IMG/VR virus record: IMGVR_UViG_3300010388_000214
Location: 31,626-95,625 of that record
DNA: 64,000 nucleotides
Reading direction: 5' to 3' (one strand)
Source: a virus
Shown in pieces: positions 3,450 to 12,600 of this stretch; positions within the stretch are counted from its first letter, which is position 1; every line of letters begins with the position of its first letter. The position numbers were made by a program, and so were the translations under genes. The notes beneath the pieces are model-generated. The model ran no database searches. It saw only the letters and a program-made list of their open reading frames with translations, and had not been told where the DNA came from.

Positions 3450-3515
3450 GCCTTATCGTAACCTTTTTTATAACAGGTTGGTAACGGTCGGGGGCCGATC
3501 CCCGTTGGGGGTAGC

Positions 3516-4076
3516 CTATGAAGCACTACCCCGAACGATGACCCAGATAAGAGCTTGAGCAGTACGAGGTGTCAGACCAAACTCTCCTGCAACTTTACGC
3601 ACAGCACGAGACAGTTCTACATACTGAGACTGAGAGGGGGAGTCAGTTCCCAGGTTAGCTGCACGACACATCCAAATGTCAATAACTACAGCGTCTTTGT
3701 CACCTGCAATAGCACGAGCGAATGCATTAGTCTTTGGACCTTTGAGAGCGTCAAACCCTAAGTCAATGCTAGTCTGTGCCATTTTGTAGTTGTTAGGCAA
3801 ACCCTTTACCTCATGACCAAGCGAGAATGCAATAGCCTTAGAGATATTACTAGCCCAACGCTCACGAGGTGAGAATGCAGAGACAACGCTTGCACCAACT
3901 TCAAGTGTGGTGTTTAGGTTGCGAGCAACTTCTTCTGCAACTTCTTCTGCATCCCGATACCAGACACTAGCCTCTTCGACCTGACCGAGAGTAGCATTCA
4001 TGAGTAGGTTGCGATACATGCCAGTGTAGTTCTTGATACGGGTGGTTACTTCTGGCTTTACGATTGTGGTTGTCAT
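3516..4076 (-). CDS. HhH DNA-glycosylase-like phage protein (186 aa)
   Basis: The region SAFSPRERWASNISKAIAF, then KTNAFARAIAGDKDAVVIDIW, resembles the core of helix-hairpin-helix glycosylase-fold proteins: a short HhH-like segment followed by a GD-x-x-A-V-x-x-D strand-helix. Similar phage proteins are annotated as DUF7178-like. Whether it cuts bases is unknown. The usual catalytic Lys of bifunctional glycosylases cannot be placed with confidence, while an Asp in the VIDIW motif is present. It stands alone behind the class II promoter at 4103-4131. Confidence 0.65.
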   Translation of the reverse strand: MTTTIVKPEVTTRIKNYTGMYRNLLMNATLGQVEEASVWYRDAEEVAEEVARNLNTTLEVGASVVSAFSPRERWASNISKAIAFSLGHEVKGLPNNYKMAQTSIDLGFDALKGPKTNAFARAIAGDKDAVVIDIWMCRAANLGTDSPSQSQYVELSRAVRKVAGEFGLTPRTAQALIWVIVRGSAS

Positions 4077-4102
4077 GGGGTGTTCCTTTCCTTATATAAA
4101 TA

Positions 4103-4131
4103 ACTATACAGTTACCCACGGACATTTGCAA
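4103..4131 (-). promoter_or_regulatory. Promoter, class II (spacer motif), site 1
   Basis: Minus strand: -35 TTGCAA (4126-4131), spacer motif ATGTCCGTGGGT (4114-4125), 5 nt, -10 TATAGT (4103-4108). TAAC half-sites at 4141, 4153 and 4164 and a GCGGCCCCC block at 4174-4182 lie upstream. Confidence 0.8.
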
Positions 4132-4219
4132 GGGTATTCTTAACTATCTTAATAACGAATAGGTAACGGATCAGCGGCCCCCGTGGGGGTAGAGAAGTCA
4201 ATCCCCACCCCCAATGGTA

Positions 4220-4702
4220 TTACCAAGAAGCCTGATATATAAATGAAATATCGCTTGTGATAGTTTTGTCTAGCAGAGTCTTCAACTCTTTCTTAGTACG
4301 CTTGAGGTCTTCCCAGTACCACTTGTCTATTTCAGTAGAACCAAAGAAGAAACCAGAAACAGGCTCTAACTCAGACGTATCTTTAGTTGCGATAACATCT
4401 GTAACAGTAAACAGCAACTCTTCCAACCTCTCACGGCTAACATAAACAGGCTGGCACTCGTCTACACCGTTAGCACAGTTAGTGATAAACCAGTTATGGA
4501 TTTGGTTAGACTTACGCCAATAGATAGCAGTCTCAGTTACAGACAGGCCAACGCTTTCGTCTGAGGCTAGGCTGTTGAGGTTTGAGGCGGTAAGAACTTC
4601 GAGATAGTCTCGGTTCTTCTCACGCTGATAGTCACCATCTACAACCTTGTAGTTGTTAGCAGGAATAAACTTACGGACTTCCAGGTACATATCGAGACCC
4701 AT
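4220..4702 (-). CDS. Conserved MGLDMYL-type phage protein (160 aa)
   Basis: The product begins MGLDMYLEVRKF and has the YWRKSNQIHNWF motif, both hallmarks of a widespread phage hypothetical family. No activity is known. The C-terminal half contains KWYWEDLKRTKKELKTLLD, a likely helical hairpin. It is monocistronic, behind the class II promoter at 4734-4763. Confidence 0.8.
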   Translation of the reverse strand: MGLDMYLEVRKFIPANNYKVVDGDYQREKNRDYLEVLTASNLNSLASDESVGLSVTETAIYWRKSNQIHNWFITNCANGVDECQPVYVSRERLEELLFTVTDVIATKDTSELEPVSGFFFGSTEIDKWYWEDLKRTKKELKTLLDKTITSDISFIYQASW

Positions 4703-4733
4703 TAGGGACTCCTTTCTTTTGAGGTTTGGTTAC

Positions 4734-4763
4734 AGTTTAGCAGTACCCACGGACATTAGTCAA
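4734..4763 (-). promoter_or_regulatory. Promoter, class II, site 2
   Basis: Minus strand: TTGACT (4758-4763), motif ATGTCCGTGGGT (4745-4756), 5 nt, TAAACT (4734-4739), with an 18-bp spacer. The -35 box lies inside the last codons of the 54-aa gene, so the element overlaps coding sequence. Confidence 0.75.
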
Positions 4764-4920
4764 GGTCATCTACTAAAATAATTTCTTTGTTGAACTGGAT
4801 TGCTTCCTCTAGCATATGGAGCATACCCAATTCTTTTGAGGTCAGGTTGTGGGTGGTGAACAGGTCTGTGGGGGTACCAGTCTCAGTGTCCACTACTCGG
4901 ATAAATAGGTCTAGTGCCAT
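4756..4920 (-). CDS. Small protein, unknown (54 aa)
   Basis: The frame MALDLFIRVVDTETGTPTD ends with an acidic stretch (IILVDDLD). It starts on the TAATG that ends the gene at 4920-5123. Its 3' end is overlapped by promoter site 2. No family recognised. Confidence 0.6.
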   Translation of the reverse strand: MALDLFIRVVDTETGTPTDLFTTHNLTSKELGMLHMLEEAIQFNKEIILVDDLD

Positions 4921-5123
4921 TAGTTCTTATACTCCCTAATTGTAAATTCTTCTGTACCGTTTTCTAGTGCATCTTCATATTCTTCGACAGTACTGAAATA
5001 ATAAAACACACCGTCGTCATTTACTTCTGAGTAATCAGTAATAAAGTCATCAGAGATAACGACATAAGTAAAAAACTCGTCTCGTGGGTCATCTCGCCAA
5101 GTGACTAGGACTTCCTTTTCCAT
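4920..5123 (-). CDS. Acidic small protein, unknown (67 aa)
   Basis: The protein is very acidic (for example VEEYEDALENGTEEF) and rich in aromatic residues (VFYYFS). It is coupled by TAATG to genes on both sides. The family is unknown. Small acidic phage proteins sometimes mimic DNA or inhibit host enzymes, which is only speculation here. Confidence 0.7.
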   Translation of the reverse strand: MEKEVLVTWRDDPRDEFFTYVVISDDFITDYSEVNDDGVFYYFSTVEEYEDALENGTEEFTIREYKN

Positions 5124-5284
5124 TATGCATACTCCTTGATTGCTCGGTTCTTTACAGTGCTACGGGTTCGCAGTCTGTTTGGTCGGTTGTCATGTGTGCC
5201 AGAGGCATTGGACTTACGCAGTTCACGCATACCAATAATGTATGCCGTGTTCTGAATTTTCTGGGGTGGTTTCGCTTTCTTCAT
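5123..5284 (-). CDS. Basic small protein, unknown (53 aa)
   Basis: The product, starting MKKAKPPQKIQNTAYIIG, is strongly basic (RLRTRSTVKNRAIKEY at the C-terminus), which suggests nucleic-acid binding. It is the first gene of the three-gene unit behind promoter site 3. ATG 5284 lies about 6 nt from that promoter's -10 box, so the message may be leaderless. Confidence 0.6.
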   Translation of the reverse strand: MKKAKPPQKIQNTAYIIGMRELRKSNASGTHDNRPNRLRTRSTVKNRAIKEYA

Positions 5285-5290
5285 AAACTA

Positions 5291-5319
5291 ATTATGACAT
5301 GACCCACTGACATTCCCGA
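5291..5319 (-). promoter_or_regulatory. Promoter, class II, site 3
   Basis: Minus strand: motif ATGTCAGTGGGT (5302-5313), 5 nt, -10 CATAAT (5291-5296). The -35 position reads TCGGGA, a poor match, while the spacer motif is kept. A GGGGGGCCGC block lies at 5324-5333. Confidence 0.65.
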
Positions 5320-5346
5320 TTTTGGGGGGCCGCCCGAAGGCCCATT

Positions 5347-5469
5347 CTAGATGAATTCGAATGGGTCTCGGTCTTGGAAGATATCCTCGAAGTCCTGCAT
5401 GGTATATGCTCCAGGGTTAGCCATGTAGTCTCGGTAGTCTGCCATGATCTCTTCTGCTTGCTCGTCCAT
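5347..5469 (-). CDS. Very small acidic protein (40 aa)
   Basis: The frame MDEQAEEIMADYRDYMANPG ends DRDPFEFI. It has a strong SD (AGGAGAGG) 5 nt from ATG 5469, located in the last codons of the preceding gene. Its 3' end contains a CCCATTC/GAATGGG inverted repeat that may form the transcript end. Function unknown. Confidence 0.6.
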   Translation of the reverse strand: MDEQAEEIMADYRDYMANPGAYTMQDFEDIFQDRDPFEFI

Positions 5470-5470
5470 A

Positions 5471-5659
5471 TTATCCTCTCCTAGGTTTTGCTTTTAGTTC
5501 TCCACGGTGGAATCTAGTTACAAACTCTCTCGCTGCTGGCCAGTACTCTAGGTTGAATGCTCGCTCATTATGCATCTCAACCATATCCAAGGCTAGCTGT
5601 TCGATTAGCTTGCGGTCAGTAATGATTACTGGCTTTATGTATGTCTCACGCTTAGTCAT
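5471..5659 (-). CDS. Small basic protein, unknown (62 aa)
   Basis: The sequence MTKRETYIKPVIITDRKLIE leads into a helical part and a basic C-terminus (KAKPRRG). The gene starts on the TAATG of the 93-aa gene. No domain recognised. Confidence 0.7.
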   Translation of the reverse strand: MTKRETYIKPVIITDRKLIEQLALDMVEMHNERAFNLEYWPAAREFVTRFHRGELKAKPRRG

Positions 5660-5940
5660 TAGTCTAACTCACTCTCGATAATCCACATACCCAAGCGGTA
5701 TGACTCAACGATATCCCAAGCCTTGACCCACTCACTGCCACGGAATGTAACACCCTCTGGCAACTTGATTTTGAGGTGACCCTCTCCGTCATTCACGGTG
5801 TCAATAGCCTCGACTGCTGTATCAACCATCTGCTGAGGAATTGGAGGATAGCAATTCGTCTGGAAGTGTAGGCTAATTTGCTGTTCAAGTGTGAAGCCTA
5901 GTTCGTCATCTTGAAGTGCTAGTGCTGATAAGTTTCCCAT
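5659..5940 (-). CDS. Small acidic protein, unknown (93 aa)
   Basis: First gene of the unit behind promoter site 4. The product (MGNLSALALQDDELGFTLEQ...) mixes a helical N-terminus with a beta segment (HLKIKLPEGVTFRGSEW). It is coupled by TAATG to the 62-aa gene. No family recognised. Confidence 0.75.
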   Translation of the reverse strand: MGNLSALALQDDELGFTLEQQISLHFQTNCYPPIPQQMVDTAVEAIDTVNDGEGHLKIKLPEGVTFRGSEWVKAWDIVESYRLGMWIIESELD

Positions 5941-5967
5941 TAGTTTTCCTTTTCTTTTGATACTATA

Positions 5968-5996
5968 AACCTATCACAAGCCACGGACATTATCAA
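5968..5996 (-). promoter_or_regulatory. Promoter, class II, site 4
   Basis: Minus strand: TTGATA (5991-5996), motif ATGTCCGTGGCT (5979-5990), 5 nt, TAGGTT (5968-5973), with a 17-bp spacer. TAAC half-sites lie at 6018 and 6029 (11 bp apart) and a GGGCCGC block at 6036-6042. Confidence 0.75.
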
Positions 5997-6053
5997 CGTA
6001 ATCGTAAGATCTTTTGGTAACAGTTAGATAACGAAGGGCCGCCTCGCACTCCC

Positions 6054-6179
6054 CTAGAAGGGGAGCTTGAGGTTTTTGTTTGCTTCTTTTAGTTCGTTTA
6101 TCTCATTACGCTGAGCAACGATAATGATACCAGCAATGATTAGGCTGAACCACATACCCCAGAACAATAGGTCTAGCAT
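6054..6179 (-). CDS. Single-pass membrane microprotein (41 aa)
   Basis: Residues 3-22 (LLFWGMWFSLIIAGIIIVAQ) form one membrane segment, followed by a charged helical tail (RNEINELKEANKNLKL). It starts on the TAATG of the upstream gene. A CTCCCC/GGGGAG hairpin overlaps its stop. Function unknown. Confidence 0.6.
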   Translation of the reverse strand: MLDLLFWGMWFSLIIAGIIIVAQRNEINELKEANKNLKLPF

Positions 6180-6367
6180 TAGTTTACCTCCACCTTGTAG
6201 CAAGCGTCTACAAACTTTACAGCCAAGAAACGGTCATTGTCCTCAGCAAACATAGCACAGAAGTCGTTCACCATATTGTCAAACTTTTCTTCCAAGCCAA
6301 TAGACATTTCCTGGTAGAAGTCGTTCAGGATTTCAGCGGTAGCAACGTAGTCTTTACGTGTCATCAT
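6179..6367 (-). CDS. Small acidic helical protein, unknown (62 aa)
   Basis: The product (MMTRKDYVATAEILNDFYQE...) is acidic and predicted helical, with a single Cys-Tyr near the end. The start may be either of two adjacent ATGs (6367 or 6364). It is the middle gene of the unit from promoter site 5. No family recognised. Confidence 0.7.
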   Translation of the reverse strand: MMTRKDYVATAEILNDFYQEMSIGLEEKFDNMVNDFCAMFAEDNDRFLAVKFVDACYKVEVN

Positions 6368-6385
6368 TTTATTTATTTCCTATTC

Positions 6386-6541
6386 TTAGTTAGCGAATGT
6401 GTCGAGAATGTTTTTGTAGGCGTCACGCTTACCGATAAAGTAAGACTTAGAGAGTTCCGAGGCGTAAGGGTCTGCGATGAAGTCATCAGCAATTTTGATT
6501 AGTTCGTTCAGAACCTTTACGGAGAGTGTTACAGTTGTCAT
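6386..6541 (-). CDS. Small protein, unknown (51 aa)
   Basis: The frame MTTVTLSVKVLNELIKIADD ends GKRDAYKNILDTFAN. The pattern (a short strand then two helices) resembles small phage host-takeover proteins, but no family is recognised. An SD-like GAAAGGA lies before ATG 6541. First gene after promoter site 5. Confidence 0.65.
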   Translation of the reverse strand: MTTVTLSVKVLNELIKIADDFIADPYASELSKSYFIGKRDAYKNILDTFAN

Positions 6542-6565
6542 TAGTTTTCCTTTCGTTATGTCTAA

Positions 6566-6594
6566 AGTCTATACCCACCCACTGACATTCTCAA
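6566..6594 (-). promoter_or_regulatory. Promoter, class II, site 5
   Basis: Minus strand: TTGAGA (6589-6594), motif ATGTCAGTGGGT (6577-6588), 5 nt, TAGACT (6566-6571). A GACACGCCGT element lies at 6599-6608 and a GGGGGCCGC block at 6644-6652. Confidence 0.75.
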
Positions 6595-6655
6595 CCCCGA
6601 CACGCCGTGTTTCTTAAACTTTCTTAAAACTTTTTTGGCGATCGGGGGCCGCTTC

Positions 6656-6904
6656 CTAGTAGTCGTCTCCATAGAAGCCACCATCGTTTGCTCCACCGTA
6701 GTCCTCGTCGTCACCCCAGCCAGCAGAGGCAAGAGCATCGGCATCCATCCAGGACTCGTCAGACCAGTCGTCTGCGGAGTCAGCGAAGAGGTCTTCCTCA
6801 CGCTGGTCCTCGTCGGTCAGGAAGATAAGTTCGTTGTCCTCCCCGAGGATTGCGTCTGCCAAGACAGAGGTGTCGAACTCTTCGATTGCGAGAATGTTGG
6901 TCAT
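6656..6904 (-). CDS. Very acidic protein, unknown (82 aa)
   Basis: The protein (MTNILAIEEFDTSVLADAIL...) turns into a highly acidic, Gly/Tyr-rich low-complexity C-terminus (DDEDYGGANDGGFYGDDY). It has a net charge far below zero and probably an unstructured tail. Acidic, disordered phage proteins can act as DNA mimics (inference only). It is monocistronic from promoter site 6, with an SD of AAAGGA. Confidence 0.75.
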   Translation of the reverse strand: MTNILAIEEFDTSVLADAILGEDNELIFLTDEDQREEDLFADSADDWSDESWMDADALASAGWGDDEDYGGANDGGFYGDDY

Positions 6905-6928
6905 GAGTTTTCCTTTCGTTGTAAAACA

Positions 6929-6957
6929 AATCTAACACAAACCACAGACATTTTCAA
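6929..6957 (-). promoter_or_regulatory. Promoter, class II, site 6
   Basis: Minus strand: TTGAAA (6952-6957), motif ATGTCTGTGGTT (6940-6951), 5 nt, TAGATT (6929-6934). TAAC half-sites at 6982, 6990 and 7001 and a GGGGGGCCGC block at 7008-7017 lie upstream. Confidence 0.75.
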
Positions 6958-7018
6958 GCGGTTTGCAGCGTTTATCTTAATTAACTTAATAACTTTTTGG
7001 TAACGACGGGGGGCCGCC

Positions 7019-7037
7019 TGTGTATAACTTATCCACA
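7019..7037. promoter_or_regulatory. Inverted DnaA-box-like pair
   Basis: TTATACACA on the minus strand (7019-7027) faces TTATCCACA on the plus strand (7029-7037). Together they form a near-perfect palindrome bounded by CCTG/CAGG, just past the stop of the gene ending at 7040. It could also act as a transcript-ending hairpin. Confidence 0.55.
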
Positions 7038-7039
7038 GG

Positions 7040-7207
7040 TTAACATTCGGGGTACATTCCATAAATTACCTGTGGGAATACCCCAGGAATATCCCTAGAG
7101 TTGTCGATAATTATCTGAGCTTCCTCACGGGTAAAGACAATCTGTGACATTATGTCTTGGAATGTCTTTTCATCTCTTAGAGTTATTTCATAGCCTAGCT
7201 TTTCCAT
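7040..7207 (-). CDS. Small protein, unknown (55 aa)
   Basis: The frame MEKLGYEITLRDEKTFQDIM ends GVFPQVIYGMYPEC. It has a beta strand and a helix of the type seen in several left-arm proteins. It starts on the TAATG of the zinc-ribbon gene and ends next to the DnaA-box-like palindrome. Function unknown. Confidence 0.6.
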   Translation of the reverse strand: MEKLGYEITLRDEKTFQDIMSQIVFTREEAQIIIDNSRDIPGVFPQVIYGMYPEC

Positions 7208-7344
7208 TACTTGAGACCCTTTCCTGCTGGGTGGAGAGCAATAGCACGCTCTAACTCACGGTGCTTTCGCAACTCAGCAAGTGAGGTGTTGTAGTGAGCA
7301 AATTTAGTCTTGAAGCCACATTCTGGGCAAGTGTACTGAGTCAT
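7207..7344 (-). CDS. Small zinc-finger-like protein (45 aa)
   Basis: A CPECGF knuckle at residues 6-11 is followed by a His-containing helix (AHYNTSLAELRKHRELERA), as in half zinc-ribbons or C2H2-like fingers. A DNA- or protein-binding role is likely but unproven. The SD AAAGGAA precedes ATG 7344. First gene after promoter site 7. Confidence 0.65.
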   Translation of the reverse strand: MTQYTCPECGFKTKFAHYNTSLAELRKHRELERAIALHPAGKGLK

Positions 7345-7371
7345 TTCAATTTCCTTTTCTTTGTTATCTAA

Positions 7372-7400
7372 AGTCTAGCGGTACCCACGGACATTATGCC
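7372..7400 (-). promoter_or_regulatory. Promoter, class II, site 7
   Basis: Minus strand: motif ATGTCCGTGGGT (7383-7394), 5 nt, TAGACT (7372-7377). The -35 position reads GGCATA, a poor match, and overlaps the end of the 48-aa gene. Confidence 0.65.
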
Positions 7401-7540
7401 TTGAAGGCAGACATTGCCACAATTTTAGTTGTGTACATTTTCTTGGCAATTGCCTGAGCGTGCCAAGTGTTGGAAGCCATAGCGAATACGGTGAAACGCT
7501 CACCTGTTGCTAACTTACCTGAGACTTTGTATTCAATCAT
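7394..7540 (-). CDS. Small basic protein, unknown (48 aa)
   Basis: The frame MIEYKVSGKLATGERFTVFA continues into AIAKKMYTTKIVAMSAF, a beta-beta-alpha-beta pattern seen in several tiny genes here. ATG 7540 is the only gene behind promoter site 8. Its stop codon is overlapped by promoter site 7. Confidence 0.6.
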   Translation of the reverse strand: MIEYKVSGKLATGERFTVFAMASNTWHAQAIAKKMYTTKIVAMSAFKA

Positions 7541-7575
7541 TTTTATTTCCTAACTCTTAGTTTCTTTATATCTAA

Positions 7576-7604
7576 ACTCTACACCCACCCACGGACATTC
7601 TAAC
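7576..7604 (-). promoter_or_regulatory. Promoter, class II, site 8
   Basis: Minus strand: motif ATGTCCGTGGGT (7587-7598), 5 nt, TAGAGT (7576-7581). The -35 position reads GTTAGA. The element overlaps the end of the gene at 7600. Confidence 0.65.
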
Positions 7605-7746
7605 TGTTGTAGTCGAAACATACATTCTGGTTAGGATATTCCAATTCGAATTCTTTACGCTTAGCGTCTACGGTATCGCGATCGCGACCCCAGAATTCGT
7701 TTAGCAACTTTCCAGTTCCTCTTTCAATTACTTGTACAATCCACAT
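7600..7746 (-). CDS. Small protein, unknown (48 aa)
   Basis: The frame opens at 7809, but the promoter at 7797-7825 lies there. The ATG at 7746, with SD AAAGGAA, is preferred and gives MWIVQVIERGTGKLLNEFW. A strand-strand-helix pattern follows (DTVDAKRKEFELEYP). No family recognised. Confidence 0.65.
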   Translation of the reverse strand: MWIVQVIERGTGKLLNEFWGRDRDTVDAKRKEFELEYPNQNVCFDYNS

Positions 7747-7796
7747 ATTTGGATTCCTTTCTCTTAGATTCTTTTTCTTACTTTCTTTATATCTAA

Positions 7797-7825
7797 AGTC
7801 TATACCCACCCACTGACATTTTGGG
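7797..7825 (-). promoter_or_regulatory. Promoter, class II, site 9
   Basis: Minus strand: motif ATGTCAGTGGGT (7808-7819), 5 nt, TAGACT (7797-7802). The -35 position reads CCCAAA, so recognition probably depends on the motif. GACACGCCGT (7830-7839) follows upstream. Confidence 0.65.
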
Positions 7826-7854
7826 GTGCGACACGCCGTAACGTAAGAAAAAAC

Positions 7855-7884
7855 TTATCCACAAAGTTATCCACAGGGGGCCGC
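7855..7884 (+). promoter_or_regulatory. Tandem DnaA-box-like pair and GGGGGCCGC block
   Basis: TTATCCACA at 7855-7863 and 7867-7875 are exact copies of the classical DnaA box with starts 12 bp apart, directly followed by GGGGGCCGC at 7876-7884. The same arrangement recurs at 8390-8419 and, with a reversed GC block, at 8963-8992. Confidence 0.6.
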
Positions 7885-7914
7885 CAAATCGGCGGTATGT
7901 CAAGTGACACGCCG

Positions 7915-8094
7915 TTAGTCACCAATCATTTTACGATAGGCGTTGAAGACATCCTTGTCAGTGTACTGACTCTGTGCCGATAGCAATTCGTCATACTTAG
8001 CCTGACTTGCTTTCCAGATACGACCGTCATCTGACATAGCATCTTCAAAAGCACGCATCTTTGCCGATAGTAGGCTTTTCATTAGTTCATCCAT
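7915..8094 (-). CDS. Small helical protein, unknown (59 aa)
   Basis: The ATG at 8094, with SD AAAGGATT, is chosen over upstream in-frame codons that run through the neighbouring gene. The product (MDELMKSLLSAKMRAFEDAM...) is all-helical by appearance. Its stop lies in a GACACGCCGT element. Function unknown. Confidence 0.65.
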   Translation of the reverse strand: MDELMKSLLSAKMRAFEDAMSDDGRIWKASQAKYDELLSAQSQYTDKDVFNAYRKMIGD

Positions 8095-8110
8095 TTTGGA
8101 ATCCTTTCTT

Positions 8111-8254
8111 TTAGTTACGAACACGGCTAATTGAAACCGAGTAAAAGTCATCACGAGCATAAGCCCGTTCGATGGCTTCGGCTTCATTGAAACCTACGAA
8201 CATAGTTTCGTGAACGAAACCACCATCTTTTTCTTTGATAATTACTTTGAACAT
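8111..8254 (-). CDS. Small protein, N-x-A-E-A-I type (47 aa)
   Basis: The ATG at 8254 has a strong SD (AAAGGAGA). Upstream in-frame codons lie at or before the promoter's -10 box. MFKVIIKEKDGGFVHETMFV is followed by FNEAEAIERAYARDD, a beta-hairpin/helix layout also seen at 289-468 and 2183-2380. Function unknown. Confidence 0.7.
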   Translation of the reverse strand: MFKVIIKEKDGGFVHETMFVGFNEAEAIERAYARDDFYSVSISRVRN

Positions 8255-8320
8255 TTTAGTTCTCCTTTCTAAGAGACTTTCTTTTTTATTTCCATATTTA
8301 GTTTTTCTTTCTATATTTAC

Positions 8321-8349
8321 ATAGTAACAGTACCCACTGACATTTTGGG
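8321..8349 (-). promoter_or_regulatory. Promoter, class II, site 10
   Basis: Minus strand: motif ATGTCAGTGGGT (8332-8343), 5 nt, TACTAT (8321-8326). The -35 position reads CCCAAA. TAAC half-sites lie at 8371 and 8382 (11 bp apart). Confidence 0.65.
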
Positions 8350-8389
8350 GCATTTTCGGGGGGTTTTTGGTAACGGAATTATAACGAAG

Positions 8390-8419
8390 TTATACACAGA
8401 GTTATCCACAGGGGGCCGC
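8390..8419 (+). promoter_or_regulatory. Tandem DnaA-box-like pair and GGGGGCCGC block
   Basis: TTATACACA (8390-8398) and TTATCCACA (8402-8410) have starts 12 bp apart and abut GGGGGCCGC (8411-8419). Next comes a GGCGGTATGTCAAG...GACACGCC segment (to 8452) that can fold into a hairpin. Confidence 0.6.
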
Positions 8420-8451
8420 CAATTTTGGCGGTATGTCAAGTCGACACGCCG

Positions 8452-8553
8452 TTAGTCCCAATAACTACTATTGGATCGACCATATGAGTTAGTCCACCAG
8501 GTAGGCACACTGTATTCGTTATCGATTGATTCTGTAGTTGTTTCATTATCCAT
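8452..8553 (-). CDS. Tiny Ser/Trp-rich protein (33 aa)
   Basis: The frame MDNETTTESIDNEYSVPTWW ends SYGRSNSSYWD. It is short and looks disordered. It is kept because it sits tightly between the 35-aa gene and the inter-unit element. Function unknown, existence uncertain. Confidence 0.4.
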   Translation of the reverse strand: MDNETTTESIDNEYSVPTWWTNSYGRSNSSYWD

Positions 8554-8554
8554 A

Positions 8555-8662
8555 TTAGTTATCTTCTTTCATTAGTTCTACTTGTACGCCTAGCAGTTCT
8601 TCTGCTGACATATCCTCTATATCGATTACACCTTCTGGTGTGAGTATCTTGAAGAATCCCAT
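8555..8662 (-). CDS. Tiny acidic protein (35 aa)
   Basis: The frame MGFFKILTPEGVIDIEDMSA continues AEELLGVQVELMKEDN. It starts on the TAATG of the upstream Cys-rich gene, which supports its reality. No family recognised. Confidence 0.5.
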   Translation of the reverse strand: MGFFKILTPEGVIDIEDMSAEELLGVQVELMKEDN

Positions 8663-8793
8663 TAGAATTCGCAACCATATGCGTCTAGGCATATCTTGCA
8701 GGATTCTTCCTGACATTCATTACAGAATACTGATTCTGTATAGTTATCACAGATATCGCAAAACGCTAATCCAATTTCATTTAGTAAGTTCAT
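8662..8793 (-). CDS. Cys-rich zinc-binding-like microprotein (43 aa)
   Basis: Four cysteine pairs or singles (CDIC, CNEC, CKIC and a final C) suggest one or two bound zinc ions, as in RING- or B-box-like micro-domains. ATG 8793 has a strong SD (AAAGGAG). It heads the unit 8793-8452. No recognisable -35/-10 pair was found directly upstream, and the AT-rich stretch 8800-8900 probably holds its promoter. Confidence 0.6.
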   Translation of the reverse strand: MNLLNEIGLAFCDICDNYTESVFCNECQEESCKICLDAYGCEF

Positions 8794-8962
8794 TATGAAC
8801 TCCTTTCTTTAGTGAGAATCTTATTTGCTTATTTCTAAGGCTCATATTCTCTATTTATTTTTTCTTTCTTTCTTTATATTATCAGTCTATACCCTATCCC
8901 AGAAAAAGCAAGCCCAAAAGCCACAAAATTTCAGCCTATTTTTTGTAGGCTACTTACAAGAG

Positions 8963-8992
8963 TTATCCACATAGTTATCCACAGGCGGCCCC
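8963..8992 (+). promoter_or_regulatory. Tandem DnaA-box-like pair and GC block
   Basis: TTATCCACA at 8963-8971 and 8975-8983 (starts 12 bp apart) are followed by GCGGCCCC at 8985-8992. This is the third such tandem pair of the arm. Confidence 0.6.
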
Positions 8993-9009
8993 TCATTTGC
9001 CAGGGTATG

Positions 9010-9126
9010 TCAAGGCAACACGCCGATGATGATAAGAATAGTATTGATCAGTAGCAAGGCTATACATACCCACCCTGCTACCCCACCTACCCTATCCAAG
9101 AGACCACACACCCAAGATGAATGCAT
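9010..9126 (-). CDS. Overlapping membrane microprotein (38 aa)
   Basis: The frame from ATG 9126 reads MHSSWVCGLLDRVGGVAGWV, then a strongly hydrophobic stretch (CIALLLINTILIIIGVLP), a clear single membrane segment. It overlaps the end of the 41-aa membrane protein by 35 bp in another frame. The start context is weak, so the evidence is mainly the hydrophobic pattern and tight packing. Confidence 0.4.
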   Translation of the reverse strand: MHSSWVCGLLDRVGGVAGWVCIALLLINTILIIIGVLP

Positions 9127-9217
9127 AGAAGCCTAGCATTATCAAGAACATCATTCCTGTATAGACAATGCCACGAACAAATCCACGTACGAGATAGTAT
9201 AGCTTAGAGTGTTCCAT
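9092..9217 (-). CDS. Single-pass membrane microprotein (41 aa)
   Basis: The product (MEHSKLYYLVRGFVRGIVYT...) contains one membrane helix (GMMFLIMLGFYAFILGVWSL). It starts on the TAATG of the 70-aa membrane protein, so two or three small membrane proteins are co-expressed. Roles such as superinfection exclusion are possible but unproven. Confidence 0.6.
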   Translation of the reverse strand: MEHSKLYYLVRGFVRGIVYTGMMFLIMLGFYAFILGVWSLG

Positions 9218-9429
9218 TAGAACTCCTTCGATTCAATGTGTTCCCATACTGCACCAACAAGACCACCAAGGCAAGAGACAGCAACTACACCAAGCATCCA
9301 AGTGATAGCAATCGGTGCCATACTCTGAGTGATAGGAGTGTAGTCAATGCTTGATGCCCAATCGAATGAGAAGGCAAAGCTTGTGATGAAGAGTGATGCT
9401 AGTACAATCATTAGTGCTACGAGTTTCAT
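9217..9429 (-). CDS. Two-helix membrane protein with signal-like start (70 aa)
   Basis: Residues 1-20 (MKLVALMIVLASLFITSFAF) look like a signal peptide or first membrane helix. A second helix spans about 38-62 (PIAITWMLGVVAVSCLGGLV). It could be a holin-like or exclusion protein, but it lies far from the lysis genes. The SD AAAGGA precedes ATG 9429, which follows promoter site 11. Confidence 0.7.
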   Translation of the reverse strand: MKLVALMIVLASLFITSFAFSFDWASSIDYTPITQSMAPIAITWMLGVVAVSCLGGLVGAVWEHIESKEF

Positions 9430-9460
9430 TTTCTGTCCTTTGTTATTTCCTGATATATAT

Positions 9461-9489
9461 ATTCAATCACGACCCACGGACAATGTCAA
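9461..9489 (-). promoter_or_regulatory. Promoter, class II, site 11
   Basis: Minus strand: TTGACA (9484-9489), motif TTGTCCGTGGGT (9472-9483), 5 nt, TTGAAT (9461-9466). A GACACGCCGT element (9492-9501) adjoins upstream. Confidence 0.7.
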
Positions 9490-9608
9490 GCGACACGCCG
9501 TGTGCTCACTAAAAAGTACCCCCCACCCAGTACTCAAATCATGTATCGTACATCTTTAAAAATTATTCAGATTTTCTGTAATTCTGATTTTCAAAATTTT
9601 TCAGATTT

Positions 9609-10352
9609 TTACTCAACAACGTTTTTACGGATCTCAGACAGAACCATCTCTGGCATCATAGACTGCTCTGAGTGCTGGTAGCGATAATCCAAAGTCTTGT
9701 TGCGGCCATAGATGTTTGGTGAGTTACTAGTCTCCTTAGTCAGAGCAAGTAGATTCTCGTTAAACATGTAACGCTTAAACACAACCTTCTTGTCAGTCAT
9801 GATCTCAAGGAAGAACAGTGGGTCATCCTCTTTGACTGAAAACTTTCGGGTAGTCTTAGGAATGTGGTAATCCAAGTTCCAAGAGCGATACCACTTACCA
9901 ATATTAAACTCTCCTGGTGACATACGTGCACCTTCCATTGGTGATACAGCAGGAAAGTATGGAGCTGTAAATCTAGCTACGACTGGTTCTGATGAAAAGA
10001 ACAACCATGATAGATTATAGATAACATCAATTTGGTCGGGGAAGCTAGAAGGTCTCTCATGATACATTCCTGCAATAGACTTTACATTCATACGAGGACT
10101 CTTTGCTGGGTCTGGTTCGTTCTCAAAGTAATAGTCTGGAATTTCAAATTCGTCATCGATAGCTGATCTAAATACAAACACATTGTCTAATGTATTTCGT
10201 GCAGCAGGACATTGCGACATAAGAGATCCAGGAATCTTCTCACGATGAAGGTTTGTATAAACATTCTCTGGTTTGCGATACAGCATAGCCATAGACTCTG
10301 TGCTTGGCATGTAGTTTGCTGGTGCCCAGTAGATCGTAATTTCTTCTGACAT
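9609..10352 (-). CDS. Conserved-looking phage protein, unknown (247 aa)
   Basis: The protein (MSEEITIYWAPANYMPSTES...) has no recognisable domain. It is rich in aromatic residues and prolines, with a central WLFFSSEPVVARFTAPYFPA segment and a Lys/Glu-rich C-terminus. Its start directly abuts the stop of the HTH gene, so the two are probably co-translated. An AT-rich 3' flank (9540-9608) contains three CAGATTTT-like repeats and no gene. Confidence 0.75.
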   Translation of the reverse strand: MSEEITIYWAPANYMPSTESMAMLYRKPENVYTNLHREKIPGSLMSQCPAARNTLDNVFVFRSAIDDEFEIPDYYFENEPDPAKSPRMNVKSIAGMYHERPSSFPDQIDVIYNLSWLFFSSEPVVARFTAPYFPAVSPMEGARMSPGEFNIGKWYRSWNLDYHIPKTTRKFSVKEDDPLFFLEIMTDKKVVFKRYMFNENLLALTKETSNSPNIYGRNKTLDYRYQHSEQSMMPEMVLSEIRKNVVE

Positions 10353-10535
10353 TTATGGTAGCTTCAACTCGGGGGTAGACTTAATCAAGTTATAAGTCAA
10401 AGCCCATTTATTTATAAGCTTATAAGACACATGTAGATCCTTAGCGATCTGTCGAACTGTCTTGGTTTGTAGCTGTTCAGCTAGCCAGGTCTTATCCTGA
10501 TAGTATTTGACGTATCCGTCTTTCATTGTTTCCAT
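10353..10535 (-). CDS. Small helix-turn-helix DNA-binding protein (60 aa)
   Basis: Residues about 27-48 (KTVRQIAKDLHVSYKLINKW) fit a helix-turn-helix with a turn at H-V-S. Such minimal HTH proteins are frequent in phages. ATG 10535 is 5 nt after the SD AAGGAG and follows a consensus promoter. It may regulate the left arm, whose promoters share repeated sites (inference). Confidence 0.7.
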   Translation of the reverse strand: METMKDGYVKYYQDKTWLAEQLQTKTVRQIAKDLHVSYKLINKWALTYNLIKSTPELKLP

Positions 10536-10563
10536 ATTCTCTCCTTTATGGTTTGGTATCTAA

Positions 10564-10592
10564 ATTTTATCAGACACTATTTCTTTTTGCAA
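10564..10592 (-). promoter_or_regulatory. Promoter TTGCAA-17-TAAAAT
   Basis: Minus strand: TTGCAA (10587-10592) and TAAAAT (10564-10569) are separated by 17 bp. It lacks the class II spacer motif. It drives the HTH gene and the 247-aa gene. Confidence 0.75.
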
Positions 10593-10617
10593 GTACAGGT
10601 ATCTCCACACATAAACG

Positions 10618-10818
10618 TCACCACTTCCCCATAGGGCATACGGCCTTCTCTAACGTTGTTTTGAGCTTCATGTAACATCCACACTTACGACATTTTGTTA
10701 GACGCTTATCTAGCCACTCACAGCCTTTACAAATTTCTAAACGCTGCTCAATGAGTTCTCTATCTGATCTCGGTTGTGATGGATCAAACAGATCTGTAAA
10801 CTTTACGTCTTTGGCCAT
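10618..10818 (-). CDS. Zinc-ribbon-type small protein (66 aa)
   Basis: The C-terminal half carries the pattern C-K-G-C, C-R-K-C-G-C and a final C-P (ICKGCEWLDK, TKCRKCGCYMK), typical of a phage zinc-ribbon family adjacent to structural or replication genes. A TAAAAT box ends 6 nt before ATG 10818, so the message is probably leaderless. The box lies within the last bases of the preceding gene. Confidence 0.7.
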   Translation of the reverse strand: MAKDVKFTDLFDPSQPRSDRELIEQRLEICKGCEWLDKRLTKCRKCGCYMKLKTTLEKAVCPMGKW

Positions 10819-10830
10819 ACATCTATTTTA

Positions 10831-10989
10831 TCACGTCTTAAGCATTGAGTTCAGATAATTCATTTCGTGCTCTGCACTAACAAAGCCAGTGCCTTCAGTG
10901 GTCTTACAGTCTACACAAAATTTAATAATCATGTATCCGCCATTGTGGCTATCGGTTTGACCTATTTTCCAATTATGTTTACAATCCAT
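10831..10989 (-). CDS. Small Cys/His protein, unknown (52 aa)
   Basis: MDCKHNWKIGQTDSHNGGYM continues with a CVDC pair, giving a C-x2-H and C-x2-C zinc-binding pattern. TATAGT ends 5 nt before ATG 10989, consistent with leaderless translation. The frame ends overlapping the next gene's -10 box. Confidence 0.6.
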   Translation of the reverse strand: MDCKHNWKIGQTDSHNGGYMIIKFCVDCKTTEGTGFVSAEHEMNYLNSMLKT

Positions 10990-11021
10990 AATCTACTATA
11001 TCAAATTTTCGACGGTATCAA

Positions 11022-11166
11022 TCAGCTTGTCTGATTCCGAAGGAGGCATTGTCCACAAAAGGATAACTCCCCATAATCGGTCATAGTATTAAACCAATAT
11101 ATATCTGATCTATGCCGTATGAGGAGCTATAGATATATTGTACACCCATTTGAAAAGGTTTGTCAA
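11022..11166 (-). promoter_or_regulatory. Promoter TTGACA-18-TACAAT with short downstream region
   Basis: Minus strand: TTGACA (11161-11166) and TACAAT (11137-11142) are spaced 18 bp. Downstream is a possible 20-aa frame (11022-11084, MTDYGELSFCGQCLLRNQTS) of doubtful reality. A TTGTCCACA sequence, the actinobacterial DnaA-box consensus, lies at 11049-11057 (plus strand). Confidence 0.6.
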
Positions 11167-11171
11167 GGTTT

Positions 11172-11222
11172 GAAAGAAAAACCCCTAGCCGTAAATTAGA
11201 ATGTGAGATCTACGGTTAGGGG
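11172..11222 (-). terminator. Rho-independent terminator, leftward
   Basis: A 12-bp stem (11211-11222 with 11182-11193, one G-U pair) is followed on the minus strand by TTTTTCTTTC. It ends the third transcript of the RNA array. Confidence 0.85.
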
Positions 11223-11243
11223 AGCTTGGTTTTCTTGACTGGG
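11173..11243 (-). ncRNA. Putative short RNA (~70 nt), third array unit
   Basis: A TATAAT box (11250-11255, minus) lies directly inside the U-tract of the preceding terminator and is followed about 70 nt later by the terminator at 11172-11222. The -35 match is poor (GCAGGT). There is no ORF of note. Function unknown. Confidence 0.45.
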
Positions 11244-11255
11244 ACTTCTATTATA

Positions 11256-11298
11256 TCAAAAGAAAATCCCCCACCTGCCGCAGCCTCCGATGGGGGAT
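11256..11298 (-). terminator. Rho-independent terminator, leftward
   Basis: An 8-bp stem ATCCCCCA/TGGGGGAT (11266-11273 with 11291-11298) is followed on the minus strand by TTTTCTTTT. It ends the second transcript and overlaps the next -10 box. Confidence 0.8.
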
Positions 11299-11412
11299 CC
11301 AATAGGTCGTCGGCTTTCGCAGAGGTCTCTATTGTTACTCTTTGTGGGAAGGACTTCCTTCACCATGATGTGGCCTAGTAAACTACGCCGAGAAGGACCT
11401 TGTCTTCTCATT
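11256..11412 (-). ncRNA. Putative structured small RNA (~155 nt), second array unit
   Basis: A consensus promoter (TTGCAA 11442-11447, 17 bp, TATAAT 11419-11424, minus) starts transcription near 11412, and the terminator at 11256-11298 ends it. Hairpins GAGAAG/CTTCTC (11390-11409) and GAAGG/CCTTC (11348-11361) lie between. A 51-aa frame (MRRQGPSRRSLLGHIMVKEV...) begins 7 nt past the -10 box and could be a leaderless gene, but it runs through the terminator stem, so an RNA is preferred. Confidence 0.55.
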
Positions 11413-11418
11413 AATACG

Positions 11419-11461
11419 ATTATAGCAAAGAAAATCTCCCCTTGCAAGCAGAGGGGGAGAT
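11419..11461 (-). terminator. Terminator after tRNA-Trp, overlapping the next promoter
   Basis: The stem ATCTCCCC/GGGGAGAT (11434-11441 with 11454-11461) is followed on the minus strand by TTTTCTTTG. The TTGCAA (11442-11447) of the next unit is in its loop and the TATAAT (11419-11424) just after its U-tract, so terminator and promoter are superimposed. Confidence 0.75.
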
Positions 11462-11480
11462 CGAGACAATTCTATTGTAG

Positions 11481-11551
11481 CACCCCACCGAGGAATTGAA
11501 CCCCGTCCAACAGGTTTGGAATCTGTCATGCTGCCGTAACACTTGTGAGAT
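11481..11551 (-). tRNA. tRNA-Trp (anticodon CCA)
   Basis: The minus strand folds as a 71-nt cloverleaf. The 7-bp acceptor stem is ATCTCAC/GTGGGGT, with two G-U pairs. The D-arm GTGT/GCAT has a TACGGCA loop. The anticodon arm ACAGA/CCTGT has loop TTCCAAA (CCA at 34-36) and one A-C mismatch at its base. The variable loop is 4 nt, and the T-arm CGGGG/CCTCG has loop TTCAATT. CCA is not encoded. It is transcribed from the consensus promoter at 11611-11639. Confidence 0.8.
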
Positions 11552-11610
11552 AGACAACCTAGCCACCGTAGATCCTAAGATTTCCTGCGTAGCTAGGTCT
11601 TAACATATTA

Positions 11611-11639
11611 ATTATAGCAAATATTTTTACACATTGCAA
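11611..11639 (-). promoter_or_regulatory. Promoter for the tRNA (TTGCAA-17-TATAAT)
   Basis: Minus strand: TTGCAA (11634-11639) and TATAAT (11611-11616) are spaced 17 bp, with TTTGC directly before the -10. The second array unit shares this TTTGC-TATAAT context. A TGTAAAG/CTTTACA inverted repeat lies upstream. Confidence 0.8.
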
Positions 11640-11950
11640 TAACATGTAAAGAAAATCGCAAAAACTTTACATATCGCCTAACATGTCTTATGTCAAATGA
11701 AAGACAACTTTACTTTGTAGAAAACAAATGAAAGCTAAATGAGGTTTACTTTCATTTAATGCCTTATATAGTCGTCATAAAGTTGGTTAATGCCTGTTAT
11801 ATTCGTCATTATTCAACTATTCGGGATTTCCGAACAGTTCACTTATTCGGTTTTTCCGAACAACTCAAATCAGTACGTACCTTCCGAAAACCAGGAAAAG
11901 TTGGTGTCAAACCACAATAATTGGTTTAAATCGGAACGAACATTCTTATC
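11640..11950. promoter_or_regulatory. Divergent control region with inverted repeats
   Basis: This stretch holds no convincing gene. It contains TGTAAAG/CTTTACA, repeated CAAATGAAAG with an inverted CTTTCATTT, and two 15-bp inverted repeats TTCGGGATTTCCGAA (11820-11834) and TTCGGTTTTTCCGAA (11846-11860). Further TTCCGAA and TCGGAA half-sites lie near 11883 and 11933. It separates leftward from rightward transcription and probably binds one or more regulators. Confidence 0.6.
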
Positions 11951-11990
11951 TGTTACCATTTCGTTATCATTCTGTTACATATCTGTAACA
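11951..11990 (+). repeat. Iteron-like array, four GTTAC-type half-sites at 11-bp pitch
   Basis: TGTTACC (11951), CGTTATC (11962), TGTTACA (11973) and TGTAACA (11984) start exactly 11 bp apart. The last two form an inverted repeat. The same TAAC/GTTA half-sites at 11-12-bp steps precede several leftward promoters. Confidence 0.65.
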
Positions 11991-12101
11991 TTTACCCATA
12001 TTCAAACCATATCTCGGATTCTGGGAGGTTAAGGTTTGAGGTTTGGGTATGTAATTCTCACCGCGAACTTTACGCCGTCGAGCTTTGCGATGCTTATTCA
12101 T
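11967..12101 (-). CDS. Possible small basic protein (44 aa)
   Basis: The minus-strand frame from ATG 12101 starts MNKHRKARRRKVRGENYIPK, with eight Arg/Lys in the first 12 residues, and ends KCYRYVTE. Such a start resembles nucleic-acid-binding or ribosomal-type microproteins. Its 3' end runs through the iteron block and no clear SD is seen, so its reality is uncertain. Confidence 0.35.
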   Translation of the reverse strand: MNKHRKARRRKVRGENYIPKPQTLTSQNPRYGLNMGKCYRYVTE

Positions 12102-12106
12102 CTTAG

Positions 12107-12127
12107 TTATCAACATGTTGTGGATAA
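12107..12127. promoter_or_regulatory. Inverted DnaA-box-like pair at the rightward promoter
   Basis: TTATCAACA (12107-12115, plus, one mismatch) and TTATCCACA (12119-12127, minus) face each other. The second overlaps the -35 region of the promoter for the 104-aa membrane protein, so binding there would affect that promoter. Confidence 0.55.
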
Positions 12128-12149
12128 CTTTTAAAAAGGACACTATAAT
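12121..12149 (+). promoter_or_regulatory. Rightward promoter (TGGATA-17-TATAAT)
   Basis: TATAAT (12144-12149) lies 9 nt before ATG 12159. The -35 position reads TGGATA (12121-12126), inside the DnaA-box-like site. Confidence 0.65.
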
Positions 12150-12158
12150 AGTAATATC

Positions 12159-12473
12159 ATGACAATTTCGGAATGGCAGGGGATTCTAGGTTTAATCATA
12201 GCAATATCAGCTGTAGCAGGAATTGTCTTTGCTATTCTCCGTTTCTATATCAGAGCATTTGCTAAACAAGAATTAGAAGACATCAGACACGAACTTAAGC
12301 CTAATAGTGGATCGTCTATGAAAGATCAGGTAACACGGCTAGAAGCAAATCAGAAAGTGATTACGGAAACTCAGAAAACAGACAGTGAAAGATTTGATCA
12401 CAAACTAGACAAGCTGGAAGATAAGGTCGACAAGATGTTCGAAATAATCCTTAAGCACTTTGGTAACAACTAA
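12159..12473 (+). CDS. DUF2746-like membrane/coiled-coil protein, possible lysis accessory (104 aa)
   Basis: One membrane helix (about residues 8-33, ILGLIIAISAVAGIVFAILR) is followed by a long charged helix or coiled coil (LEANQKVITETQ, KLDKLEDKVDKMFEII). This layout matches DUF2746-type proteins found beside lysis genes in actinobacteriophages. A holin or spanin-like accessory role is possible. It is the first rightward gene and appears almost leaderless. Confidence 0.65.
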   Translation: MTISEWQGILGLIIAISAVAGIVFAILRFYIRAFAKQELEDIRHELKPNSGSSMKDQVTRLEANQKVITETQKTDSERFDHKLDKLEDKVDKMFEIILKHFGNN

Positions 12474-12600
12474 TCCCTTATATATTAATATATATATACT
12501 AGATATCTTAGCTAGCTGTTATAGTTCTCTTATCAATTATTACAATTATACACACAAGTTCCTATGTCTTGATACCAAAACCTCATATTCTTTGATAACA

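Follow-up and report, generated by a model that had tools for sequence, protein, structure and literature searches.

Eleven leftward promoters of an uncultured phage of actinobacteria share a fixed spacer motif, and they are very probably promoters of the PafBC type (RecA-NDp or P1 promoters) that would be read during infection by host PafBC activated by single-stranded DNA (ssDNA). The window analysed here, 64,000 nucleotides (nt) long, comprises bases 31626-95625 of the 95,625-base IMG/VR record IMGVR_UViG_3300010388_000214. The case for the promoter type is strong, as judged from sequence comparison; PafBC dependence and the timing in infection are what we infer from it.

Eleven phased sites in the leftward region

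A first-pass annotation of the window had listed eleven minus-strand coordinates at which a 12-mer lies between the -35 and -10 hexamers. The 12-mer ATGTCNGTGGNT was indeed found at all of them, ten copies being exact and the one at 9472 starting with T, and TGTCNGTGG was present in 11 of 11 sites. The annotated gap of 5 nt between the 12-mer and the -10 hexamer was confirmed by direct measurement at every site. The -10 hexamers fit TANNNT at nine sites, the exceptions being CATAAT (5302) and TTGAAT (9472). The sites are given below, each with its 12-mer, its -10, and the open reading frame (ORF) that follows.

4103..4125, minus: probable PafBC-type promoter ATGTCCGTGGGT-aactg-TATAGT, before the DUF7178 gene; likewise in loci L012, L013, L014, L015, L017, and L018
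4734..4756, minus: probable PafBC-type promoter ATGTCCGTGGGT-actgc-TAAACT; downstream ORF 4220-4702
5291..5313, minus: probable PafBC-type promoter ATGTCAGTGGGT-catgt-CATAAT; ORF 5123-5284, probably leaderless
5968..5990, minus: probable PafBC-type promoter ATGTCCGTGGCT-tgtga-TAGGTT; ORF 5659-5940
6566..6588, minus: probable PafBC-type promoter ATGTCAGTGGGT-gggta-TAGACT; ORF 6386-6541
6929..6951, minus: probable PafBC-type promoter ATGTCTGTGGTT-tgtgt-TAGATT; ORF 6656-6904
7372..7394, minus: probable PafBC-type promoter ATGTCCGTGGGT-accgc-TAGACT, without -35; ORF start 7344 (45 aa)
7576..7598, minus: probable PafBC-type promoter ATGTCCGTGGGT-gggtg-TAGAGT, without -35; ORF start 7540 (48 aa)
7797..7819, minus: probable PafBC-type promoter ATGTCAGTGGGT-gggta-TAGACT, without -35; ORF start 7746 (48 aa)
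8321..8343, minus: probable PafBC-type promoter ATGTCAGTGGGT-actgt-TACTAT, without -35; ORF start 8254 (47 aa)
9461..9483, minus: weakest of the probable PafBC-type promoters (13.5 bits), TTGTCCGTGGGT-cgtga-TTGAAT, with consensus TTGACA directly upstream; ORF 9217-9429

Second-order Markov simulations of the window gave a mean of 0.27 for the 12-mer alone, compared with 11 observed, and a mean of 0.005 for the 12-mer followed by N5 and TANNNT, compared with 9 observed; the observed copies were all on the minus strand. With positions 1 and 2 of the -10 relaxed, the latter count rose from 9 to 11. In the complete record of 95.6 kb, nine copies of the 12-mer core had TANNNT at a spacing of 5, and no other spacing had more than two. 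The loose core TGTCNG-N10-TANNNT, when counted in this genome alone, was not clearly enriched (9, compared with up to 8 for permuted cores); the significance therefore rests on the longer 12-mer, the strand bias, and an independent matrix. This matrix, which was trained on 503 sites of other viral contigs with the window and a near-identical relative excluded, ranked exactly the eleven sites at the top of the 95.6-kb virus, at 13.5-25 bits, the next match scoring 9.8. All eleven are confined to the leftward region of small ORFs at 4.1-9.5 kb, and none of the structural and nucleotide-metabolism genes carried a PafBC-type site in the matrix scan of the virus.

Each site lies 6-66 nt ahead of an ORF start. 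At 5302 the ATG follows the -10 by 6 nt, so this transcript is probably leaderless. The annotation had also placed a -35 hexamer directly before the motif; this was true of only five sites, where TTGNNA was found (4114, 5979, 6577, 6940, and 9472), and at 4745 a TTGACT is displaced one base further upstream. The statement that 5302, 7383, 7587, 7808, and 8332 keep the motif with a poor -35 proved correct, as no -35-like hexamer was found there. Separately, a TTGCTT-N17-TAGACT-like promoter with a degenerate -26 (TTTCTG-N10-TAGACT) occurs at window 8885-8912 on the minus strand and is a possible twelfth site.

Correspondence with PafBC promoters and spread among viruses

RecA-independent DNA-damage promoters of mycobacteria have the consensus tTGTCRgtg-8 nt-TannnT (PMC5656591), which is said to extend to other actinobacteria (PMC8223512), and a promoter of this type has been found in Streptomyces (PMC5087735). 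The phage arrangement, TGTCNGTG followed by GGT, N5, and TANNNT, is the same; counted from TGTC it reads TGTCNG-N10-TANNNT, with the published core and the published distance. The 8 nt that separate TGTCRGTG from the -10 in RecA-NDp promoters were exact in 11/11 sites and TANNNT was present in 9/11, and the -35, dispensable in that class, had no recognizable counterpart at five or six sites. The WYL-domain heterodimer PafBC is reported to read the -26 element through a mechanism called "sigma adaptation," for which a -35 box is not required (PMC11804915). PafBC is activated by ssDNA, the -26 motif being bound by PafB and sigma region 4 by PafC (PMC11804915).

The same promoter was found ahead of actinobacterial recA genes. 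We took the 500-bp upstream segments of 30 RecA-family loci from a sample of the class to which G001 belongs (Rhodoluna; Actinomycetia), and TGTCRG-N10-TANNNT was present in 26/30. The mean for 29 permuted cores was 0, and spacings of 5-9 and 11-15 likewise gave 0. The bases that follow TGTCRG at recA (TGGC.., ACCC.., AGGG.., CCCC..) vary as they do in the viruses, and both "dialects" of the phages past TGTCRG (TGG.. and ACCC..) occur at recA too.

Absence of the motif from relatives in the same genes had been named beforehand as grounds for abandoning it; it was present there, both in a near-identical record and in relatives sharing the DUF7178 gene. The near-identical record (G128) kept all eleven sites, with C/A swaps at the free position and an altered N5. 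Relatives with 67-72% DUF7178 protein identity had between 3 and 12 sites in each locus, most of them on a single strand, and in six of these relatives a site lies directly upstream of the DUF7178 gene. In these relatives the core is mostly TGTCRG followed by ACCC or TCCC; since the flank differs between relatives while the core and N10 stay unchanged, it is the core and the distance that are conserved. Several ORF starts lie 6-7 nt past the -10 and are leaderless-like. No array was seen in L019, which at 44% identity is the most distant of the relatives.

Scanning IMG/VR with a window-derived pattern yielded 80 loci with 643 sites in 793 kb, where permuted cores predict 16.5. With a second pattern, TGTCAGTGGT-N6-TATAAT, at least 120 stretches were hit; among the matches listed, 76 were new loci, holding 522 sites compared with 14 expected, 10 of them on the minor strand. 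Both scans together, among the matches listed, gave 156 loci (1.5 Mb) and 1165 sites compared with approximately 30 expected, nearly all on one strand. A scrambled control pattern hit 15 stretches in IMG/VR, with one site in total and no array. The occurrence of similar promoter arrays in more than 100 other uncultured viral contigs suggests that these viruses wire genes to the host damage alarm. Many of the array-bearing viruses may live in fresh water.

The probable reader and alternative explanations

Because the motif equals the -26 element of host PafBC promoters, the host activator is its likeliest reader. The earlier proposal that a protein reads the conserved spacer stands, whereas the phage repressor or sigma-like factor offered as that protein is less likely. 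In the virus and 32 array-bearing records (33 viral records in all), no protein reached the family cut-off for WYL; a single weak match, in G154, was partial (69 aa) and fell below it. A phage-encoded WYL or PafBC protein was rejected for want of a clear match in these records. Small actinobacterial genomes, sampled as stand-ins for the host of the virus, carry neighbouring genes that appear to be pafB and pafC orthologues. WYL proteins were encoded in 14/14 actinobacterial genomes, as adjacent genes of approximately 300-340 aa in most of the 1.2-1.7-Mb ones. In comparisons with solved structures, the best matches of the adjacent pair in one genome were chains PafB and PafC in PafBC complexes such as the initiation complex 7P5X; in a second genome, the leading gene of the pair matched PafB. 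The actinobacterial marker WhiB was found in 15/18 array-bearing records tested, this virus included.

We propose that, during infection, ssDNA arising from the phage (replication intermediates, ends, or gaps) or from host damage would be bound by host PafBC in its WYL domains. In the loaded complex, PafB would then read the -26 element while PafC holds SigA region 4, and RNA polymerase would start at the -10, so that a set of small genes of early or middle type would be expressed unit by unit as replication or damage proceeds. Sites that have a -35-like hexamer may possess additional basal SigA activity. More tentatively, host PafBC might serve as an expression switch across a large group of such uncultured viruses of actinobacteria: ssDNA from phage replication or host damage would activate PafBC and fire 10-20 phage promoters at once, in a positive feedback that would also divert the repair regulator from host genes.

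Several observations weigh against the assignment to PafBC. The fifth base of TGTCNG in the window is C in 7/11 sites, A in 3, and T in 1, and the published consensus has R; the -26 core is therefore matched only with a relaxed fifth base, which in related arrays is mainly A or G. Some sites retain a -35, and for these SigA alone might suffice. The seed patterns of the IMG/VR scans were derived from the window or from array loci, so one site per locus was selected for. The loose pattern, searched genome-wide in eight small host genomes, did not exceed the reversed control (7-13 matches per 1.2-1.4 Mb, approximately the control level), which means that only specific genes such as recA carry the promoter there. 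Finally, 21 cultured actinophage records, those of the Karimac/Annadreamy kind included, had no such array and only 0-4 matches per record, approximately as in the reversed control; the array is thus not a general actinophage trait.

Among the alternatives, an activator encoded by the phage and unrelated in sequence to PafBC could read the -26 element, the virus mimicking a host promoter and supplying its own reader. The phage has the motif at much higher density (11 in 5.4 kb) than the hosts do, most early genes of the virus are ORFans, and MotA/AsiA of T4 is a precedent for phage factors that act in place of a -35. We nevertheless consider this improbable, given that the core, spacing, and flank dialects of the motif are all those of the host recA promoter, that the 33 viral records held no WYL protein above the cut-off, and that no candidate reader gene common to the array-bearing contigs was found. 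Ordinary SigA promoters, in which the spacer motif is merely a strong or extended -10 context and no activator is needed, are still less likely. TTGNNA at a spacing of 17 does occur at five sites, and in approximately one quarter of the viral sites pooled, at least four positions of TTGACA are matched with that spacing; against this, five or six window sites keep the motif without a -35, TGTCNG and its N10 distance stay constant while the flanks of relatives diverge, and N10 is the sole spacing at recA. The least likely reader is another host regulator, namely ClgR, or a WhiB protein that binds SigA region 4 and comes from either the phage or the host: WhiB is encoded in most array-bearing records, as noted above, but WhiB7-type action needs a -35 and AT-rich DNA upstream of it, and neither is conserved at the phage sites. 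For ClgR, recognition of the same P1 motif in mycobacteria is reported, as cited in PMC5656591, but PafBC has been located in vivo at RecA-NDp sites (PMC6789036) and the initiation complex shows PafB on the -26 motif (PMC11804915).

Genomic setting and comparison with known systems

The virus encodes a portal, a head maturation protease, tail fibres, and a CHAP/CW_7/LysM endolysin, together with the large and small chains of ribonucleotide reductase, ThyX, and WhiB. Among cultured phages, those closest to it belong to the Karimac and Annadreamy groups of Streptomyces phages, at approximately 55% protein identity, and window 3500-12500 showed no DNA-level similarity to cultured phages. The gene behind the leftmost promoter is as follows.

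3516..4076, minus: DUF7178 / phrog_3842 gene, 186 aa; homologues in cultured actinophages are annotated as DNA/N-glycosylase or endonuclease

In most of the cultured actinophage records examined, the DUF7178 homologues sit close to one genome end. A small early ORF beginning MMTRKDYV (window 6179-6367, minus; L163:4119-4310; L187:1378-1569) is common to distant array-bearing viruses and had no counterpart among cultured phages.

Two further repeats accompany the array. Six exact DnaA-box-like sites TGTGGATAA, including two pairs 12 bp apart, lie on the minus strand at window 7029-8983, within 2 kb of the promoter array; the window holds 8 compared with 0.6 expected, mostly following GGCGGCCCCC-like runs, and similar TTATCCACA repeats occur in the relative L017 (11214-11554). 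The cluster is a possible origin or site of DnaA control. The second element, CGGCGTGTCG, occurs between genes on the minus strand at 6598, 7829, 7905, 8442, 9016, and 9491, followed by CTTGACAT at 4/6 sites; its 6 copies, compared with 0.7 expected, are all inside the array region. On the host side, PafBC-type matches of small actinobacterial genomes bunch within one stretch of approximately 40 kb (L306 and L307; G032:C1:420001-460000), one match being ahead of a defence-like run of genes that includes a large helicase and a NERD/helicase protein, and another ahead of a LysM gene beside an SOS-like box.

The open-access literature searched contained no report of PafBC-type promoters in phages and no relevant report on promoters of freshwater actinophages. 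To our knowledge, PafBC sigma adaptation is known only from bacterial damage regulons, and phages linked to the host damage response via LexA are already known. If the assignment is right, actinophages use the host ssDNA alarm as an activator, where others use LexA or their own sigma-modifying proteins. The sequence signature would mark candidate early promoters in more than 100 otherwise unannotated viral contigs, the arrays point to a possible way for these phages to time expression, and the sites form a natural set of PafBC-type promoters, with both flank dialects, for probing what PafB reads.

Of the systems compared, the L5-type stoperators consist of palindromic sites for a repressor, spread over the genome in short intergenic gaps and not phased to -10 boxes. 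They resemble the present sites in being short and repeated in an actinophage, but the likeness drawn in the first-pass annotation was unhelpful and they were rejected as a model, since the phage motif is asymmetric and directional, with its 12-mer end always N5, and TGTCNG always N10, from the -10. LexA boxes at the promoters were also rejected: CGAAC-N4-GTTCG was absent from the 95.6-kb record and occurred 15 times in the 1.5 Mb of array loci. In LexA/SOS-linked phages, such as coliphage 186 (tum) and Bacillus phage GIL01, LexA derepression acts at one or a few sites; the tie to a host DNA-damage regulator is alike, whereas this virus would be activated, and at eleven promoters. T4 middle promoters come closer in architecture, as a MotA box at -30 plus a -10 replaces the -35 over repeated phage genes while AsiA sits on sigma region 4 (sigma appropriation). 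However, the T4 box is unrelated and MotA and AsiA are phage proteins, whereas the probable reader here is a host protein, no WYL gene having been found in the phage. The RecA-NDp/P1 promoters share the TGTCRG core, N10, TANNNT, the dispensable -35, and the single direction. They differ in that host sites are sparse and stand ahead of repair genes, whereas the phage has an eleven-promoter array before small ORFan genes and takes C besides A at the fifth base.

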